A stretch of 64,000 bases of DNA, taken from Tricholoma matsutake. Taxonomy: Eukaryota > Basidiomycota > Agaricomycetes > Agaricales > Tricholomataceae. This document shows, in pieces, positions 21,758 to 53,778 of the stretch. How positions within the stretch are numbered: the first letter of the stretch is position 1; each line of letters begins with the position of its first letter. Location of the stretch: contig AP026542.1 of the NCBI GenBank assembly GCA_026075535.2, positions 7,130,001-7,194,000 of the forward strand. Reading direction: 5' to 3'. The notes beneath the pieces were generated by a model that had not been told where the DNA came from, searched no databases, and saw only the letters and a list, made by a program, of their open reading frames with translations. Both the position numbers and the translations under genes were made by a program.

Positions 21758-22094
21758 GAGGTCTTTATCCTCCCCCATGTATTCCTGGAGGAATATTGGG
21801 AACCAATGTTCCAGCCATTTGTGACTCAAGTATATATTCCTGGATCTTCCCATTCCAGGGGGATTCCTGGTTGATTCCTGGTAAACTACACTCTTCCAGG
21901 AGGAATTCCTGGAATTCCCCAGGACTCTGGTACCAGGAATCCCCCAGGACTCTCAGGACTCTACCAGGAATTGGAACTCACCAGGAATCCATGAGGACTC
22001 TACCAGGACTCTACCAGGACTCTACCAGGAATCCACTGGGACTCCACTGGGATTTAACCAGGAGTCTTTATTACTACTAAGTAATAAAATAAAT

Positions 22095-22178
22095 GTCATG
22101 AGCCAGAATTGAACACTGAGCATTAGATGACAAAGGTCATAGCAGAGCCAATATAACCACTACACCACATGGATTTAC
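22095..22178 (-). ncRNA. tRNA-like Pol III module, left end of Q1
   Basis: On the minus strand an A box (TGTGGTGTAGTGGTTATATTG) and a B box (GTGTTCAATTC) are spaced as in a tRNA. It is too diverged to be a working tRNA. It points outward, toward the left terminus. Confidence 0.6.
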
Positions 22179-22415
22179 AACATATATCCACTAACTGCTC
22201 TAGGTACTATTGGGGCAGCTGTGCATGACAAAGCACACAGCCACATCATCAACACTGCCAGCTCATCAACCATCACCACCACTCTCGACGACGCCGCCGC
22301 CTCTCCCTCCTCTCCGCTCTACCACCACCACCACTGCATGGACACCCACCGCCACCACTCCCATGCCCACTCCCCCATCACCACCACCCGCAAACGAGCT
22401 GACTGGATGGAACGC

Positions 22416-22975
22416 GGGCCCAAATGACGCTGATCGCGTCATTTGGGGCCTAAGTATGTTTTTTTTTGTTTGCTTTTTTTGTTTTTTTTTGTTTTTATAT
22501 ACTAACTAACTTGTTTCGTTTGTTTTATAGGTTTTACTCTACTGCCAGACAGAACATGGGCCCAAACGATGCAGATCGCATCGTTTGGGCCCTAAGTAAG
22601 TTTTTTTTGTTTGCTTTTTGTTTTTATATACTAACTAACTTGTTTCTTTTGTTTTATAGGTTCTACTCTACTGCCAGACAGAACAGGGGCCCAGACGACG
22701 TGATTTGATGGAACGCAGGCCCAAACGATGCAGATTGCATCGTTTGGGCCCTAAGTAAGTTTTTTTTGTTTGCTTTTTGTTTTATAAACTAACTAACTTG
22801 TTTCTTTTGTTTTATAGGTTCTACTCTACTGCCAGACAGAACACAGGCCCAAACGACGTGATTGGATGGAATGCAGGCCCAAATGATGCAATCACATTGT
22901 TTGGGCCCCAAGTGTGCTTTTTTTCCTTTTTTTTTGTTTATATAAGCTAACAAAATATATTGCTTTCTTTTGTAG
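22416..22975 (+). repeat. Tandem hairpin-intron cassettes in Q1
   Basis: Four consecutive units. Each has a near-perfect hairpin with arms GGGCCCAAAYGAYGC and its complement, followed at once by an intron-like block and then GTTCTACTCTACTGCCAGACAGAAC. Intron-like blocks: 22454-22530, 22596-22659, 22755-22817, 22912-22975 (63-77 nt). Donors are GTATGT, GTAAGT, GTAAGT, GTGTGC; branch TACTAAC or GCTAAC; acceptors TTTATAG or TTGTAG. A fifth unit lies at 23320-23431. No long reading frame links the exons. Splicing is inferred from signals only. Confidence 0.7.
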
Positions 22976-23040
22976 CATCTAAACTACAGGTAACGAACAG
23001 TGACAACACAAAATGGGCCATGCCCACAACCGACCGAGCA

Positions 23041-23680
23041 CCTGCCCCCATGCCTGCGAGCCCCTGCTCGTAGGGTGGATCACGGGTGCCAGCAGAGCAA
23101 ACAGACCCCACAGGCCCAGCCCCACCCACCAAATGACACAACACCCATGTCCAGCCCCATGAGCAACTGCTTGTGGGGTGGATCATGGGTGGAATGACGA
23201 ATGAAGAAATGGAGAACGACGATGCAGAGAAGGAGGGCTGTAAGTAAGTTTTTTTTCTCTTATTTTTTTGGTCACTGACAAAACTTTTTAAGTACTAGCT
23301 ACTGACTACGATGAGACTGGATGGAACACAGGCCCAAATGACGCAGATCACGTCGTTTGGGCCCTACGTAATTTTTTTTTGTTTGCTTTTTGTTTTTATA
23401 AACTAACTAACTTGTTTCTTTTGTTTTATAGGTTCTACTCTACTGGTAACGACAGCCGGACATGAGACAACCCAACACACCCACCCCACGCCTGCAAGCC
23501 TCTGCTCGTAGGGTGGATTGTGAGTGTGTGCAGTCGACGACGATGACGACGCCACCACCTACCAGCACCAGAACCCCAAGAATGCAAAGCATGGCTGCCA
23601 ACCATGACGGACGACGACAACAGGGCCAACGACACACCACCCGCCTCCAGCCCCATGAGCCACTGCTCATGGGGTGGATT
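23041..23680 (+). ncRNA. Stem-loop cluster with covarying arms, Q1
   Basis: Repeated stem-loops each followed by GGGTGGAT.ATGGGTGGAA-like sequence: 23053-23074 (arms CCTGCGAGC and GCTCGTAGG), 23155-23178 (CCCCATGAGCA and TGCTTGTGGGG, two G-U pairs), about 23489-23512, and 23651-23674 (CCCCATGAGC and GCTCATGGGG, perfect). Stems are kept while bases change, the mark of structure selected as RNA or of recent inverted duplication. Confidence 0.6.
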
Positions 23681-23875
23681 GTGGGTGGAATGGCGATGAC
23701 GGCCACCACCATGCAGCGGGAGACGGCCAGGATGGCAACGACGACCAGGAAGGGCATGGCGAACAGGAGCAGCACGGAAGTGACACCCAGGACAGCAACG
23801 ATGAGGACAGCAACAACGAAGGCCTGGCACCCAGGATGACGGGGACAGGACGACAGGCACGACTCACCAGGCTGC

Positions 23876-24125
23876 CCCCACATTTTGTGTGGGGTGGTTT
23901 TTTTCATTTTTTATTTATGGTAATACCTTCCCCTTCACCCCCATTTTACATGGGTGAGGGGTTTTTCTTTCTTTTTCTTTATAATTGTAGTGCTCCCCTC
24001 GCATCGAATGCGAGGGGAGATTAGTTTTATATGTATATATTTGTAGGACTCCCCCTCGCACCTTGTGTGGGGGAGGTTTTTTTTTATGTAATTAATGGTG
24101 TATCCCTTGCATCCAATGCAAGGGA
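23876..24125 (+). ncRNA. Series of five GC-rich hairpins, Q1
   Basis: Hairpins at 23876-23894, 23929-23962, 23993-24019, 24051-24076 and 24103-24125, with arms such as CTCCCCTCGCAT/ATGCGAGGGGAG and CCCTTGCAT/ATGCAAGGG, separated by T-rich spacers. All five are present in Q2 (47000-47280) with base changes that mostly keep pairing. Function unknown. Confidence 0.65.
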
Positions 24126-24158
24126 TGTAGTTAATAAATTTTATTTGATCTTAATTGT

Positions 24159-24584
24159 TATAAGGGCAACCTAAGCCTCTAGCAAAGGGAAATCCGAAGT
24201 TAAAATTATACTACATAATACAGGCATTGGGGGCGCACCTAGCAAAGGGAAATCCGAAGAGAAAACTCTAAGGATCCCCTTGCTGATGCCCAGTATATGT
24301 GAAGACGACAAAAATCAAATATAACCTAAAAATAGAAAAAGGCGGAGATAGGCAGATCAAGGCCGCCGAATGACATCATACCAAGGGGTATGTGTCGGAA
24401 GGGGTACTCCGCCTCTAAATATAAAAGTGTCAACATATACAAACATGATAGCAAGGGAAAATTAGTAATAAAATCCGGAAAAATCATAGAAAATGAAGAA
24501 TAGAAGGAAATGAGGTGGGGAAAAATATGGGACGAACATAAAAAATAGGAAAAACACACAGGGCACCCCCCTAGTCCCCTTACA
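24159..24584 (-). repeat. Solo LTR of the Gypsy A family in Q1
   Basis: 426 bp, inverted, flanked by ATTGT on both sides (24154-24158 and 24585-24589). Q2 has the empty site (CACAATTAAGATC, about 46984-46996). Formed by LTR-LTR recombination after insertion. Confidence 0.95.
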
Positions 24585-24662
24585 ATTGTGAGCTTCGAGA
24601 GAGAAATACCTAAGTTTGAGTTTGAGGGTATAAATACACTATTATATTGGCAGCTAATAATT

Positions 24663-24748
24663 CTCCTGTGGCTCAACTGGTTAAGCACTTGTTTGGTTTG
24701 TCATGTGATTCTTGATCATGAGTTCCAGAGTTCAATCCCTGCTCTGAA
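24663..24748 (+). ncRNA. tRNA-like Pol III module, right end of Q1
   Basis: A box TGGCTCAACTGGTTAAGC (one mismatch to consensus) and B box GTTCAATCCC, 86 bp in all, longer than a standard tRNA. Faces the right terminus. Conserved in Q2 at 46827-46911. Confidence 0.7.
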
Positions 24749-24849
24749 CAAGTTTATTTTGTAGGTACTTTGTGAAATTCATGAAGTCTGAAGCACTTGA
24801 AACTCATAAGATATCTCAAATTGACTTTCCATTATGGTATGACTTTAGG

Positions 24850-24955
24850 GTACTGAGTCCCACTAGATTCCTGGTGAGTCCCACTAGATTCCTGGTGAGT
24901 CCCACTGGAGTCCTGGTGAGTCCCACTGGATTCCTCCAGGACTCTGTGGGGGAGT
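24850..24955 (+). repeat. Subterminal 21-bp repeats, right end of Q1
   Basis: About four copies of a 21-bp unit (GAGTCCCACTRGATTCCTGGT). Q2 has eight or nine copies. Such repeats near hAT ends typically bind transposase. Confidence 0.8.
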
Positions 24956-24966
24956 GTAAAGTTCAG

Positions 24967-25207
24967 GTTTGGATGCATGCAGACTGTCCTTGCTCATCCG
25001 ACCTGGTTGATCACAGACATGGATGGATGAAATCTGCAGAATCTGAGTAAAATACATGGATCCGTGCGGACTGTCACACTGTGTTGCACAGCTAAAATGG
25101 TTTATTGTATGGATTGCAAATCTGCATGGAGTCTGTGCAGATCCGTGTGGAGTCCACGCAATTCTGCACGGATCCACATGAAACATATGGGGCAGTGTAA
25201 AGACCTC
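24967..25207 (-). mobile_element. Displaced left end of element P
   Basis: Holds the P subterminal repeats (GGACTCCATGCAGATCC-like) and terminus GAGGTCTTTACACTGCCCC at 25207 (minus). The equivalent inner sequence abuts Q2 at 49044; the two parts were separated by the inversion. Next to it, AACAACAAC (25208-25216, minus) matches ACAACAAC at the other end of P (53779-53786), which is the target duplication of P. Confidence 0.8.
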
Positions 25208-46454: not shown

Positions 46455-46534
46455 AAAACATCCTGAACTTTACACTCCCCCACAGAGTCCTGGAGGAATC
46501 CTGGTAGTCCTACCAGAAAGACCAGGAATCCTCC

Positions 46535-46715
46535 AGGAATCCAGTGGGACTCACCAGGACTCCAGTGGGACTCACCAGGACTCCAGTGGGACTCACCAGG
46601 ACTCCAGTGGGACTCACCAGGACTCCAGTGGGACTCACCAGGACTCCAGTGGGACTCACCAGGACTCCAGTGGGACTCACCAGGACTCCAGTGGGACTCA
46701 CCAGGAATCTAGTGG
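46535..46715 (-). repeat. 21-bp tandem repeats, Q2
   Basis: Eight to nine head-to-tail copies of a 21-bp unit containing GGACTCCAGTGGGACTCACC, nearly identical. Recent slippage expansion compared with about four in Q1. Confidence 0.92.
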
Positions 46716-46826
46716 GACTCAGTGCCCTAAAGTCATACCATAATGGAAAGTCAATTTGAGATATCTTACGAGTTTCAAGTACTTTGGACTTCATGAATTT
46801 CACAAAGTACCTACAAAATAAACCTG

Positions 46827-46911
46827 TTCAGAGCAGGGATTGAACTCTGGAACTCATGATCAAGAATCACACAACAAACCAAACAAGTGCTTAACTGTTG
46901 AGCCACAGGAG
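46827..46911 (-). ncRNA. tRNA-like module in Q2
   Basis: Counterpart of 24663-24748; B box GTTCAATCCC kept, A box TGGCTCAACAGTTAAGC has lost the GG of the D loop. Faces the nearer Q2 end. Confidence 0.65.
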
Positions 46912-46999
46912 AATTATTAGCTGCCAATATAATAGTGTATTTATACCCTCAAACTCAAACTTAGGTATTTCTCTCTCGAAGCTCACAATTAAGATCAAA

Positions 47000-48770
47000 T
47001 AAAATTTATTAACTACATCCCTCGCATTGGATGCGAGGGATACACCATTAATTACATAAAAAAAACCTTTCCCCACACAAGGTGCAAGGGGGAGTCCTAC
47101 AAATATATACATATAAAACTAATCTCCCCTCACATCAAATGCGAGGGGAGCACTACAATTATAAAGAAAAAGAAAGAAAAACCCCTCACCCATGTAAAAC
47201 GTGGGCGAGGGGGAAGGTATTACCATAAATAAAAAATGAAAAAAACCACCCCACGCAAAATGCAGGGGAAGCCTGGTGAGTCGTGCCTGTCATCCTGTCC
47301 CCGTCATCCTGGGTGCTGGGCCTTCGTTGTCGCTGTCCTCATCGTTGCCATCCTGGGCATCATTTCCATGCTGCTCCTGGTCACCGTGCCCTTCCTGGTC
47401 GTCATTGCCATCCTGGCCATCTCCCACTGTGTGGTGGTGGCTGTCATCGCCATTCCACCCACAATCCACCCCATGAGCAGTGGCTCATGGGGCTGGAGGC
47501 GGGTGGTGTGTCATTGGCCCTGTTGTCATCGTCCGTCATGGTTGGCAGCCATGCTTTGCATTCTCTGGGTTCTGGTGCTGGTAGGTGGTGGCGTCGTCGT
47601 CGTCGTCGACTGCACACACTCACAATCCACCCTACGAGCAGAGGCTCGCAGGCGTGGGGTGGGTGTGTTGGGTTGTCTCGTGTCCGGCTGTTGTTACCAG
47701 TAGAGTAGAACCTATAAAACAAAAGAAACGAGTTAGTTAGTTTATAAAAACAAAAAGCAAACAAAAAAAAATTACGTAGGGCCCAACTGACGTGATCTGC
47801 GTTGTTTGGGCCCGTGTTCCATCCAGTCTCGTCGTAGTCAGTAGCTAGTACTTAAAAAGTTTTGTCAGTGACCAAAAAAATAAGAGAAAAAAAACTTACT
47901 TACTTATGGCCCTCCTTCTCTGCGTTGTCGTTCTCCATTTCTTCGTTCATCGTTCCACCCATGATCCACCCCACAAGCAGTTGCTCATGGGGCTGGACAT
48001 GGGTGTTGTGTCATTTGGTGGGTGGGGCTGGGCCTGCAGGGTCTGTTTGCTCTGCTGGCACCCATGATCCACCCTACGAGCAGGGGCTCGCAGGCGTGGG
48101 GGCAGGTGCTCGGTCAGTTGTGGGCATGGCCCATTTCATGTCGTCGCTGTTCATTACCTGTAGTTTAGATGCTACAAAAGAAAGCAATATATTTTGTTAG
48201 CTTATATAAACAAAAAAAAAGGAAAAAAAGCACACTTAGGGCCCAAACGATGTGATTGCATTGTTTGGGCCTGTGTTCCATCTGGCAGTAGAGTAGAACC
48301 TATAAAACAAAAGAAACAAGTTAGTTAGTTTATAAAACAAAAAGCAAACAAAAAAAACTTACTTAGGGCCCAAACAACGTGATCTGCATTGTTTGGGCCT
48401 GCGTTCCATCGAATCACGTCATCTGGGCCCCTGTTCCATCTGGCAGTAGAGTAGAACCTATAAAACAAAAGAAACAAGTAAGTTAGTATATAAAAACAAA
48501 AAGCAAACAAAAAAAACTTACTTAGGGCCCAAATGATGCGATCTGCATCATTTGGGCCCATGTTCTGTCTGGCAGTAGAGTAAAACCTATAAAACAAACA
48601 AAACAAGTTAGTTAGTATATAAAAACAAAAAAAAAACAAAAAGCAAACAAAAAAAAACATACTTAGGCCCCAAACGATGTGATCAGCATCGTTTGGGCCC
48701 GTGTTCCGTCCAGTTGGCTCGTTTGTGGGTGGTGGTGATGGGGGAGTGGGCATGGGAGTGGTGGCGGTGG
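47000..48770 (-). ncRNA. Hairpin and intron-cassette interior of Q2
   Basis: Mirror of Q1 22416-24125. Five GC hairpins (47010-47280), covarying stem-loops (such as 47477-47500 and 48070-48091), and intron-like blocks with TTACTTAC donors (read inverted, GTAAGTAA), GTTAGT branch complements and CTATAAAA acceptors near 48290, 48460, 48590. Differences from Q1 are mostly transitions. Confidence 0.65.
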
Positions 48771-49079
48771 GTGTCCAGATTCCTGGTACCAGAGTCCTGG
48801 GGAATTCCAGGAATTCCTCCTGGAAGAGTGTAGTTTACCAGGAATCAACCAGGAATCCCCCTGGAATGGGAAGAGCCAGGAATATATACTTGAGTCACAA
48901 ATGGCTGGAACATTGGTTCCCAATATTCCTCCAGGATTCCTGGTCTTACTGACAGGAATGCCAGGATTCCTGGTCTTACTGACAGGAATGCCAGGATTCC
49001 TCCAGGATTCCTCCAGGAATACATGGGGGAGGACGAAGACCTCATCCGAACAGACCATTTGAGCTTAGCAAAATAATGT

Positions 49080-49158
49080 CACCAATGGTATTTGAACCCA
49101 TAGCCTCATGACTAAGTAAGAGAGTACAGACACACATTACCGTTACACTATGGAGCCA
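49080..49158 (-). ncRNA. tRNA-like module, left arm of P
   Basis: Minus strand A box CATAGTGTAACGGTAATGTG and B box GGGTTCAAATACC. The inverted counterpart is 53481-53557. Faces outward. Confidence 0.68.
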
Positions 49159-49564
49159 TTACTGTTTGGGGCCATTGATGCAACTACATACCACTGTTTG
49201 GCTTTGTATGACAAAGCACACAGCTGTGTCATCACCATTGCCAGCTCATCACTCACCACCACCATCAACACCACCACCTCCCTCCCTCCCCTCCACTCTA
49301 CCACCACCACCACTGCATGCATGCATGCCACCACCATTCCCACGCCCACTCCCACCATCACCACCACCTTTAAATGGAGGCCTTTACACTCCCCCCAATC
49401 CGATCGGACTCCACTCGGACACTCGGACTTTGCTCAGACTTTGCTCGGACTTCTTTGGCTGAAAGTCCTGCCAAACTAAATGTCCAGTCTGAGCTGAGTC
49501 TGAGCTGAGTCCTCGGACTGTCCTAGGACTGTCCGAGTTGCTTATATAATTGACTGAAAAATCA

Positions 49565-49648
49565 GTGGCTACCGCAGGGATTGAACCCTTGTAGTCACAT
49601 GATAAAGTACATTTAAGGCAACAAGATAACCATTAGACTCAAGTATCA
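49565..49648 (-). ncRNA. tRNA-like module, left end of R
   Basis: Minus strand A box TGAGTCTAATGGTTATCTTG and B box GGGTTCAATCCC, the latter perfect. Faces the left terminus. Confidence 0.7.
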
Positions 49649-49894
49649 TTACAGGTAGATAGTTTTATCTCTCTATGTACCACCCCGGCTGTGATGACAA
49701 ATCAACACAGCCAGGTCACCAACGATGATGATCGATCATCACCAACCACCACCACCACCACCACCACTCGATGACGACGCCTCCCTCCCACATCCTGCTG
49801 CCACCACTGCCCCCTGAACACCCCACAGCCACAGGCCCCATGCCAGCACATGATGAAATGGGCCCAAACGACGATAGAGTCATTTGGGCCCCAG

Positions 49895-50261
49895 GTGAGT
49901 TTTTTCTTTTTTCTTTTCTCATGTTTTCTTTAAGCTAACACATTTTTTCATTAATTATAGGTTATATCTATACTGTAGCAGCAAAATGACCTCAAACCCA
50001 CCAAACGAGGAACAATGATGAGACCATGACCCAGCACCCGCCCCCGCCAGTGCGAGCAACTGCTCGCATGGGGGAGAGCGGCTGCTAATGATGACGACAA
50101 TGACAGGGAACGACGACACCACCCGCCCCAGCCCTACAAGCCACTGCTCATAGAGTGGACGATGGGTGGAACGACAACAATTAGGGGAGACCCAAGAGAC
50201 CCTAGGTAAGCTTTTTTTTCTTTTCTCATTTCATTTTTTGATGCTAACTAACTTTTTATAG
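49895..50261 (+). repeat. Intron-like blocks and stem-loops in R
   Basis: Block 1, 49895-49960 (donor GTGAGT, branch GCTAAC, acceptor ATTATAG); block 2, 50206-50261 (donor GTAAGC, branch GCTAACTAAC, acceptor TTTATAG). Between them is a stem-loop at 50051-50068 with arms TGCGAGCA and TGCTCGCA. A GGGCCCAAACGAC hairpin (49860-49890) sits just before donor 1, as in Q. Confidence 0.68.
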
Positions 50262-50808
50262 GTACAAACTACTATTGGCAACGACGACAATGGGGGGACA
50301 CCACCACCACCACTGCTGCGAGCCCCTGCTCGCAGGGTGGAAGGTGAGGGTGAAGAGACAAGGGGGAAGGGAGACAAGGGGGAGGGGAGACGAGAGGGAA
50401 GAGAGACAAGGGGGAACAGAGATGAGAGGGAAGGGAGACGAGAGGGAAGGGAGATGACAATGAGTGGGAACACCCACAATGACACCCGCCCCACACCTAT
50501 GAGCATCTGCTCATGGGGTGGTTCAGGGGGGAGAAGAATGGGGACAGGAGAGTGAGACGGCCAGGGGATGACCCGGGGAGAGACAAATGCCACCACAAGC
50601 AACAGTTGCTCATGGTGGGTGTTTTTAATTTATTTTTATTATTGATAGTTATGGCCCCCTCCCCTCGAGCTTGCGAGGGGAGGGCCTAGTATTACATATA
50701 TTAATTACCCCTCACACAGATGCGAGGGGGTCAATTTAATAATCTATTCATGACATATATAAAAATTAGATTTTAGTAATAAATAGATATAATGTATGTG
50801 ACTTTAAA

Positions 50809-50897
50809 TGACTACTTGGCTTAAGTGGTAGAGTGTGCATGTTTGGTCATCATGTGATCGCTAGTCCAGAAGTCTGTTGGTTCAATTCCTGCTGTGC
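50809..50897 (+). ncRNA. tRNA-like module, right end of R
   Basis: A box TTGGCTTAAGTGGTAGAGTG and a perfect B box GGTTCAATTCC. Faces the right terminus. Confidence 0.72.
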
Positions 50898-51125
50898 ACA
50901 CATCATTTTGTGAGACTTATAAGAATTTCTGTAAGTCTGGAACTTGGACAATACTTTAAAGGTGTAAGTAAATGCACAATTGATGTTGTCCGAGCAAAGT
51001 CTGAGTGCAGTCCTAGGACAGTCCGAGTGTCTGAGCAGAGTCTGAGCAGAGTCCGAGCAGAGTCCAAGTGTGTCCGAGCGGAGTCTGCTCGGACTGGGGG
51101 GGGAGTGTAAAGTACTGTTTAAATG

Positions 51126-51925
51126 AGCCAACTGGATGTAACGCGGGCCCAAATGATGGCAACTGTCATTTGGGCCATAGATAAGTTTTTTTTTCTTTTT
51201 TCTTTTTGTATTTATCAATGAACTAATTGTATTTTATTGCTTTTTAGGTTGTATACTACTGGGGACGACCTGCCACAACAAAAAATGTGCAACCCATGCC
51301 CATGCCCACCCAATCCCCCTCCTCCCTGTTCAAACGGGATGTGAGGCTGTTGACACAGGCTAGGAGGGTGCCGAGGGATGCCAGGAGACCCCCAGAAGGG
51401 GGATACCTGCCTAGTAAGCACCTACCAACCCCCGTACATGCACCACATTGCACTGATGCGCCCAAATCCCTCCCCCCCCCCCCCCCCCCCCAAAAAAAAA
51501 AGACAGAAATCCAAATGGGGGACAATGGAGACGAATGACAACAAGCCACCCACCCCCAGCCTCATGAGCAACTGCTCATGGGGTGGAACATGGGTGGAAT
51601 GACACCCAGGCACAGGGACAGGAGACAACGACACACCACCTGCCCCCAGCCTCACAAGCAACTGCTTGTGGGGTGGATCATGGGTGGAACAACGACAAGG
51701 AAGGGGGGGGTGTACAGACCAATGGGGAATGGTGAGGGGGGACAAGAGGGAGCCACAAGAGAGGGCCAACGATGAATGCACCTGCCCCTGCCGTCTCGCA
51801 TGCTAGCAAGATGGTGGGTTATTTATTTTATTCTATAGTCTACTGCCCCCCTCTTTGGCAGGGGGGCAACTTTTTTTGTATTTAATACTACCAATAAAAT
51901 GTCCCCCATTGTGGGGGCATCCTTG
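51126..51925 (+). ncRNA. Hairpin and intron interior of P, left arm
   Basis: GGGCCCAAATGA hairpin (51147-51178), an intron-like block to TTTTTAG at 51247 whose donor is ATAAGT (G lost in both arms), stem-loops at 51561-51582 (arms CATGAGCA, TGCTCATG) and 51651-51672 (CACAAGCA, TGCTTGTG), then hairpins at 51844-51868 and 51899-51920. An 18-C run at 51474-51491 is a low-complexity tract. Confidence 0.62.
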
Positions 51926-52059
51926 TTTTTTTTTGATGTTGAAAGTATTTTAAATAGTTAATAAATAACATAAATTTTTGTTTATCCTGTATGGCAGAAC
52001 AAACCCACCCATATGTCATCAACCCATGCCTCAATTCTTCATTTGGATCACCACATGGT

Positions 52060-52160
52060 TGGAGTCCATGCGGACTTATGCGGACTTATGCAGACTTATG
52101 CAGACTCTGTGCAGACTTATGCAGACTTATGTGGACTCTGCATGGACTGGGGTGGAGTCC
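52060..52160 (+). repeat. Subterminal repeats of P, left arm
   Basis: Short repeats of GGACTTATGC and CAGACTTATG, inverted at 52300-52435 in the other arm. Confidence 0.78.
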
Positions 52161-52191
52161 ATGCCAAAGGGGGTGTAATTTTTCATTTTGG

Positions 52192-52262
52192 TCACCAGAT
52201 GGTCGGACTCCGCACAGTCCACATGGATCTGCACGGAACATATGGGGCAGTGTAAATTACTG
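52192..52262. other. Spacer at the centre of the P palindrome
   Basis: 71 bp bounded on both sides by CCAAAATGAAAAATTACACC in opposite orientation. It contains a complete-looking P terminus, suggesting that P arose by fusion of two copies. Confidence 0.6.
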
Positions 52263-53480
52263 CCAAAATGAAAAATTACACCCCCTTTGACACGGACTCT
52301 GCCCCAGTCCATGCAGAGTCTGCATAAGTCTGCATAAGTCCGCACGGAGTCTGGATAAGTCTGGATAAGTCTGCACAGAGTCTGCATAAGTCTGCATAAG
52401 TCCACATAAGTCCGCACGGACTCCGACCATGTGGTGATCCAAATGAAGAATTGAGGCATGGGTTGATGGCATATGGGTGGGTTTGTTCTGCCATACAGGA
52501 TAAACAAAAATTTATGTTATTTATTAACTATTTAAAATACTTTCAACATCAAAAAAAAACAAGGATGCCCCCACAACAGGGGACATTTTATTGGTAGTAT
52601 TAAATACAAAAAAAGTTGCCCCCCTGCCAAAGAGGGGGGCAGTAGACTATAGAATAAAATAAATAACCCACCGTCTCACTAGCATGTGAGACGGCAGGGG
52701 CGGGTGCATTCATTGTCGGCCCTCTCTTGTGGCCCCCTCTTGTCCCTCCTCACTGTTCCCCATTGGTCTGTATGCACCCCCCTTCCTCATTGTTGTTCCA
52801 CCCACAATCCACCCCACGAGCAGTTGCTTGTGAGGCTGGGGGTGGGTGGCTTGTTGTCATTCGTCCCCGTCATCCCCCATTTGGATTTCTGTCTTTTTTT
52901 TTGGGGGGGGGGAGGGAGGGGTTTGGGTGCGTCAGTGCGACGTGGCGCATGTACAGGGGTTGGTGGGTGCTTACTAGGCAGGTATCCCCCTTCTGGGGTC
53001 TCCTGGCATCCCTTGGCACCCTCCTGGCCCATGTTGACAGCCTCACATCCCATTTGAATAGGGAGGAGGGGGATTGGGTGGGCGTGGGCGTGGGTTGCGC
53101 ATTTTTCATCGTGGCAGGTCATCCCCAGTAGTATACAACCTAAAAAGCAATAAAATACAATTAGTTCATTGATAAAAACAAAAAGAAAAAGAAAAAAAAA
53201 ACTTATCTATGGCCCAAACAACAGTTGCTGTCATTTGGGCCCATGTTCCATCCAGTCAGCTCATTTAAAGGTGGTGGTGATGGTGGGAGTGGGCGTGGGA
53301 ATGGTGGTGGCATGTGTGCATGCAGTGGTGGTGGTGGTAGAGTGGAGGGGAGGGAGGGAGGTGGTGGCATCGATGGTGGTGGTGAGTGATGAGCTGGCAA
53401 TGTTGATGACGCAGCTGTGTGCTTTGTCATACAAAGCCAAACAGTGGTATGTAGTTGCATCAATGGCCCCAAACAGTAAT

Positions 53481-53557
53481 GGCTTCATAGTGTAACAGTA
53501 ATGCATGTCTGTACTCTCTTACTTAGTCATGAGGCTATGGGTTCAAATACCATTGGT
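53481..53557 (+). ncRNA. tRNA-like module, right arm of P
   Basis: A box CATAGTGTAACAGTAATGC, B box GGGTTCAAATACC. Just beyond it, at 53587-53594, GTTCGGAT is the empty site of the Q2 insertion. Confidence 0.7.
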
Positions 53558-53778
53558 GACATTATTTTGCTAAGCTCAAATGGTCTGTTCGGATGCATGC
53601 GGACTGTCCTTGCTCATCTGACCTGATTGATCATGGATGCGGATGGACGAAATCCATGGAATCTGAGTAAAATACATGGATTCCATGTTAGTCTGCACGG
53701 ACTCCATGCAGATCCATGCAGAGTCCTCACAATTCCGCATGGATCCGCGCAGAACATATGGGGCAGTGTAAATTACTG

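Follow-up and report, generated by a model that had tools for sequence, protein, structure and literature searches.

A 64-kb stretch of the Tricholoma matsutake genome (C5:7130001-7194000; hereafter the window, in whose positions coordinates are given unless a locus or contig is named) contains three repeat families, P, Q and R, which a sequence-only reading had described as hAT-like elements built from tRNA-like modules, intron cassettes and hairpins. Our analysis indicates that P, Q and R are probably members of one large, mostly non-autonomous group of terminal inverted repeat (TIR) DNA transposons that is moved in trans. Members of this group share ends around different interiors, are flanked by 8-bp target-site duplications (TSDs), occur as copies in which CpG sites have decayed, and are composed of recurring modules. 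The elements examined were mostly gene-less.

In the assembly of 161,040,721 bases in 13 contigs, used for all genome-wide counts, the left motif GAGGYCTTTACACT was found at 1,181 exact sites (596 + 585) and the right motif CAGTAMTTTACACT at 737 (359 + 378), while the reversed controls gave 1 + 0 and 0 + 1 sites, respectively. These counts, far above those of the controls, bear out the proposed relatedness of the ends, the left and right ends being asymmetric. The ends of P itself, with the consensus GAGGTCTT(T/C)(A/G)TCC and CTGAACTTTACACT, proved to be related to the motifs that had been quoted for them, but were not exactly those motifs. The facing of the motifs was analyzed in the first 10.75 Mb of contig 1, for which both lists were complete (100 left and 46 right motifs). 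Within 4 kb, 15 left/right pairs faced inwards compared to seven in all other arrangements, and within 8 kb the corresponding numbers were 18 and 13; 12 of the 15 inward-facing pairs below 4 kb were 1.07-2.16 kb apart.

Duplications were scored in 26 elements with both ends located, employing the best-scoring end pair of each. A match of 8/8 was observed in 16 elements and of 7/8 in four, so that the 8-bp TSDs reported earlier were recovered in 20 of the 26; two further duplications were perfect but shifted by one base, and four elements showed none, apart from the flank exchange of P1 and P2 described below. Subterminal repeats were also present, as had been claimed. P1, for which seven other long copies with 89-94% identity were found, is delimited as follows:

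21758..24966, + strand: element P1, bounded by GAGGTCTTTATCC (left) and AGTGTAAAGTTCAG (right); a 426-nt solo long terminal repeat (LTR) lies within approximately 2.78 kb of P sequence
21758..22060, + strand: left end and subterminal CCAGGA/TCCTGG repeats (by eye)
24845..24966, + strand: right subterminal 21-nt repeats and right end (by eye)

Outward tRNA-like units and module order

Near their ends, the elements carry putative tRNA-like units, each comprising an A box, a B box and a run of T 14-18 nt past the B box, in outward orientation. A left unit was found in all seven families examined and a right unit in P, Q, S and T. In P1, they are located at:

22085..22190, - strand: left tRNA-like unit, outward; A box TGGTGTAGTGG, B box TGTTCAATTCT, TTTT at +16
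24669..24760, + strand: right tRNA-like unit, outward; A box TGGCTCAACTG, B box AGTTCAATCCC, TTTT at +18

Left units lie on the minus strand with the B box 82-369 nt inside the left end. They were detected in 16 of 18 elements, the exceptions being P2 and E6, with agreement at 15-17 of the 17 box positions, and in all 16 a run of T followed, either at +15 or +16 or, in family T, at +1 and again at +14. A right unit with TTTT at +16 to +18 was observed in 12 of 18 elements; as regards the misses, the pieces of E1 and V end before the right end, and the unit of E4 was seen in the alignment while the scripted pick fell elsewhere. As a background, 454 of 4,200 randomly chosen positions had TTTT within 30 nt. 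Across the seven families, mean identity in the A and B boxes of the left units was 0.68 and 0.77, compared to 0.34-0.41 around them, and the four right units compared gave 0.65 and 0.91 vs. 0.46-0.48 in their surroundings. Part of this identity is a selection effect, since the boxes were picked by score and their identities are thereby inflated; the terminators played no part in the choice. None of 100 shuffles reached the box score in Q, R, E8 or V.

Several observations weigh against this interpretation. The 11 nt past the right B box were likewise conserved (0.76), so the right boxes do not clearly stand out, and no right unit was found in R (two copies) or U. Further, the box score was matched by 13-22 of 100 shuffles in the P copies, S, U and E4, and by 83 of 100 in E6. 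It is place, strand and terminator, not box score, that carry the case for the predicted units. ARAGORN found no tRNA in the window, 27 loci or the P consensus, and Rfam gave no tRNA family match for the units, its sub-threshold matches being taken as chance. The tRNA-like modules of the sequence-only reading stand insofar as the two boxes and the terminator coincide in position and strand, but not as a tRNA fold that either program recognizes.

What appears to be new here are these outward units with A box, B box and T run, on the left in all seven families, and their fixed presence amid an otherwise fast-changing transposon group is the remaining surprise. They may have been kept by selection on source elements, as outward units transcribed by RNA polymerase III (Pol III), across at least seven families that otherwise drifted apart, probably as TFIIIC-bound boundaries protecting both the ends and the interior with its introns from CpG methylation, by which the copies seem to be eroded. 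We consider this proposal as a whole rather unlikely, and the TFIIIC boundary is a guess. If the units are working parts, they would amount to a transposon-borne insulator or a small-RNA gene pair in a repeat-rich genome.

The module order of P, Q and R was also recognized, by eye and from sequence matches, in families S (E7, L069), T (E4, E5, E6, E8) and U (E3), with single modules missing in some families. The order shared across diverged sequence is therefore real, and wider than had been described. In P1, the modules are:

22217..22243, + strand: conserved GCTGTGCATGACAAAGCACACAGC, weak hairpin (z -1.36)
22417..22453, + strand: donor hairpin 1, directly before an intron-like stretch (z -5.55)
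22454..22530, + strand: intron-like cassette 1 (GTATGT...TACTAAC...ATAG; by eye, from sequence)
22559..22594, + strand: donor hairpin 2, perfect 15-bp stem (z -8.33)
about 22596-22659, 22755-22817, 22912-22975, 23240-23298 and 23368-23431: further intron-like cassettes (by eye)
23020..23700, + strand: four copies of CACCC...GAGC-N4-GCTC...GGGTGG-type hairpins, two of them folded (z -5.86 and -2.42)
23876..24130, + strand: five closing GC hairpins, with T runs after most (z -2.75 to -6.03)

The intron-like cassettes are present as read from the letters. Likewise, the hairpins before splice donors and the closing GC hairpins were confirmed by folding, ten stretches at donor, CACCC-GAGC and closing positions giving z values of -2.4 to -8.3. 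The GCTGTG hairpin at 22217..22243 failed as a structure, 19 of 200 shuffles being equally good; conservation of its ATGACAAAGCA part extends over P, R, S, T and U.

CpG decay in the hairpin stems

In nine P copies, 664 of the 863 departures from the consensus were transitions of the type C to T or G to A. CpG sites of the consensus were intact in 492 instances, TG in 314, CA in 254 and otherwise altered in 65, a loss behind which methylation presumably lies. Because CpGs decay in both arms of palindromes, paired changes arise without selection. The stem-loops had been described as covarying, with the shared order suggesting selection on RNA structure; such selection should produce an excess of wobbles over mismatches, and of double changes over the number given by independent decay. 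Counts were strand-specific, since palindromes match both strands, which swaps C.A and T.G and forces equality. The 39 CpG-CpG stem pairs of the nine copies yielded 188 intact cells, 62 wobbles and 62 mismatches, and double changes numbered 23 vs. approximately 28 expected from independent CpG decay. By class, wobble:mismatch ratios at these pairs were 19:12 in the donor region, 39:37 in the CACCC-GAGC hairpins and 4:13 in the closing hairpins (p 0.049, leaning to mismatch). Ratios of 224:66 and 131:19 in non-donor hairpins were dropped, as consensus wobbles had been mixed in.

A set of 90 sense-strand donor hairpins showed 93 wobbles and 56 mismatches (p 0.003). Of these, the outer two pairs, whose arms both carry CpG, gave 44:32, positions 3 and 4 gave 49:6 and position 5 gave 0:17; we read the leanings at inner positions as reflecting which source arm had the CpG. 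Tests of coupling between the arms gave p >= 0.29 in seven of eight cases and p 0.05 in one, the outermost donor stem lying outside the covariation test because it was fixed by the search pattern.

Were RNA structure under selection, the transcript would fold into a fixed hairpin series serving mobility or escape, and the arms would covary. This would agree with the folding of 9 of 11 stretches below z -2.7, the order held across families, the overall excess of wobbles in the donor hairpins and the single coupled position. It is opposed by the equality of wobbles and mismatches at CpG-CpG pairs, by double changes no more frequent than independent decay predicts and by the seven uncoupled tests, and the donor excess itself, apart from that of the outer pairs, stems from positions 3 and 4 and is reversed at position 5, a lean that is expected if only one source arm carried the CpG. 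We regard this explanation as very improbable. Given the wobble/mismatch balance and the independence of the arms, there is no sign of individual copies being held to RNA structure, and neither the covariation nor the selection suggested earlier was upheld; source elements may still have been under selection. The arm-independence test provides a simple means of separating CpG decay in palindromes from real RNA covariation.

We propose that the elements work as follows. A transposase supplied in trans would cut GAGG..TTTACACT and AGTGTAAA..CAG-type ends beside the arrays of subterminal repeats, and cut-and-paste insertion would leave the 8-bp duplications. The interior would derive from a common modular ancestor that had an outward Pol III-type unit close to one end or to both, a leader rich in CACC, cassettes with introns and palindromic hairpins rich in CpG. 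Short tRNA-like RNAs would be made by Pol III, ending before the subterminal repeats, and an RNA polymerase II unit with introns would lie between the tRNA-like units. After insertion, CpGs would be lost independently in both hairpin arms, and because of this independence the hairpins are likely to be inherited from source elements and not maintained in each copy.

A gene-bearing relative and candidate transposases

E2 (L002, L077) has an R-like end GAGGTCTTTACACTGCACC and a left unit whose A and B boxes are both perfect, behind which lies a spliced-looking gene beginning MPSTHSLTSKTHSG; this family was named V. Beyond position 2880, E2 contains another insertion, itself holding reversed P-like hairpin modules, and its second half consists mostly of other repeats. 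Among 40 V candidates scored, 14 other loci matched over 1.2-1.4 kb, in 13 cases starting at the element end, and 23 had only approximately the first 300 nt in common, which looks like the usual autonomous/non-autonomous pattern. The gene continues at one of the V-matching loci (L080), and the V protein had 154 genome matches, counted exon by exon, with some open frames of 400-500 codons. With a left end and a left unit of this type, V elements are the best candidates for the autonomous lineage. The sequence-only reading had named an autonomous relative with the exons and introns of a known transposase as the finding that would overturn it: a gene-bearing relative with a spliced-looking gene behind a related end does exist, but this gene corresponds to no known transposase, and its exons do not resemble the P cassettes.

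Movement in trans within one group has to be weighed against the following. No transposase was found in any element with these ends. The V protein pieces stayed below the Pfam cut-offs for every family, and a protein database search with them returned none of 335 candidates at E <= 0.001. Further, V is known from its left part, and transcription and splicing are predictions from sequence features.

The interiors might instead be the decayed coding gene of a V-like ancestor, with leader, exons and introns as fossils and the hairpins as amplified exon pieces, an explanation that we find plausible, though not the more probable one. Behind its related left end and unit, V has an ATG, exons and introns of the GT-AG type at the equivalent position, and P, R, S, T and U have all retained the ATGACAAAGCA...GCCAGCTCATCA region. 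On the other hand, the reading frame between the conserved ATG and the first hairpin varies (remainders 0, 1 and 2 in 5, 18 and 11 of 34 instances), V positions 382-1384 match neither the other elements nor the window, and the cassettes are repeated up to five times in P. In the P consensus, no open frame exceeded 195 codons, stop to stop. A coding frame with GPNDADRIVWALS running through the P donor hairpins and introns was rejected, as the frame from the conserved ATG was not maintained.

As regards the enzyme, it is possible but doubtful that these are ordinary non-autonomous hAT elements moved by a hAT transposase of this genome. The 8-bp TSDs, the CAG right end and the subterminal repeats would suit such an origin, the genome holds at least 151 matches to the hAT dimerisation domain, and among 30 hAT loci two (L018, L025) hold a one-mismatch right motif and one (L030) a core motif. 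However, hAT ends are of the YARNG type, which the right CAGTA fits loosely and the left GAGGT does not fit, and the hAT target consensus nTnnnnAn is not followed, T occupying position 2 in 1 and A position 7 in 4 of the 16 perfect TSDs (by eye). In addition, the ends that could be read in the 30 loci with 1.5-kb flanks, belonging to two groups of families, were TAAGGCTCCAAC and TAGTGATGTA(C/T)AGGGCCC, and loci of the other groups had no readable end, 30 of at least 151 loci having been viewed; among the matches listed, none lay within 15 kb of V copies (by eye). The description of P, Q and R as hAT-like, resting on the 8-bp TSD and the CAG right end, is thus not established, since the left end and the target consensus deviate and the hAT genes with readable ends have other ends. 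At L031, one of the 30 loci, an exact GAGG end lies where the hAT homology stops and faces away from the gene. This hAT gene beside an S element (L031/L069:3156) was rejected as a partner, as its homology stops at the outward-facing GAGG end and six related loci run on; the arrangement probably represents an insertion, whose other junction was not found.

A KDZ (Zisupton-like) transposase is a less promising candidate still, and we judge it improbable. Zisupton generates 8-bp TSDs, the same length as here, and Kyakuja of Laccaria 7-bp TSDs with CA..TG termini (PMC12730594). The genome has at least 165 KDZ matches: a KDZ gene lies 3 kb inside a GAGG end at L078, C1:5245319-5251368 carries the same end and gene, and another match lies 3 kb inside a GAGG site at C1:6006335. 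Yet the L078 element seems to have an edge of its own 0.97 kb inside the GAGG end, and L078:1038 is, to within one base, where the matches at four other loci start. Because of this edge, the KDZ element and the GAGG end look like separate insertions, and KDZ was set aside as a partner from L078; C1:5245319-5251368 reads as a duplicated segment, since the flank outside its GAGG end also matches. L078:1038 is the probable edge of a matsutake KDZ element. MULE transposases gave 60 matches, with none within 15 kb inside the listed V ends (by eye).

Inversion in the window and comparison with known systems

The remaining features of the window are:

24159..24584, - strand: solo LTR, 426 nt, 97% like LTR copies elsewhere in the window
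24967..25207, - strand: R left-end fragment (GAGGTCTTTACACTGCCCC), formerly joined to 49044 onward
46463..49043, - strand: element P2, second P copy, flanks exchanged with P1
49044..49376, + strand: R left part, resuming after Q and bearing the left tRNA-like unit
49377..51117, + strand: element Q, 1,741 nt, flanked by the perfect TSD TTTAAATG, with a tRNA-like unit at each end
51118..53778, no single strand: rest of R and an inverted second R copy, right-type ends at 52262 and 53778

P1 does extend over 21758-24966, but 24159-24584 is foreign to P, the solo LTR being missing from the other long P copies. Its length equals that published for the marY1 LTR, 426 bp (PMC10627285).

P1 lacks a TSD of its own because P1 and P2 have exchanged flanks: the left flank of P1, AATGTTTT, matches the right flank of P2, GATGTTTT, and the left flank of P2, GTTCGGAT, the right flank of P1, GTTTGGAT. 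When the left flank of P1 and the right flank of P2 are joined, a gypsy-type reading frame runs unbroken across the junction, and the other original junction was found intact in the second R copy near 53590. These three observations indicate that the approximately 21 kb between P1 and P2 were inverted by recombination between the inverted transposon copies.

The 21-nt subterminal repeat of P has grown into a tandem array in P2 (46491-46742) and at locus L068. The region 49044-53778 comprises two inverted R copies with a short centre and right-type ends on both, and has the look of a fold-back composite.

A design combining tRNA-like units, cassettes and hairpins in TIR elements was not found described in the open-access literature searched. 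Repeats make up 71.6% of the T. matsutake genome, 25.4% being unclassified, and a 'Small RNA' repeat class comprises 1.9 Mb in 2,342 pieces (PMC10211490). It may be guessed that elements with tRNA-like units are misfiled under this class.

KDZ elements share the 8-bp TSD in the case of Zisupton, and their genes are abundant in this genome; they differ in that the single KDZ element examined apparently has an edge of its own, and in the 7-bp TSD and termini of Kyakuja. The hAT superfamily shares the 8-bp TSD, short TIRs, subterminal repeats and CAG at one end, and differs from the P group by the GAGG left end and the target consensus, and in that no hAT transposase was found, among the 30 loci viewed, in an element with these ends. 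An A box, a B box and a terminator are also characteristic of tRNA-derived short interspersed nuclear elements (SINEs); here, however, up to two outward units per element are located inside a TIR element with an 8-bp TSD, and a SINE tail was not noticed. Large non-autonomous TIR elements and miniature inverted-repeat transposable elements likewise have no transposase, many copies, and common ends with differing interiors, whereas the present elements, at 1.7-2.8 kb, contain, in a fixed order, intron-like cassettes together with Pol III-like units in pairs.

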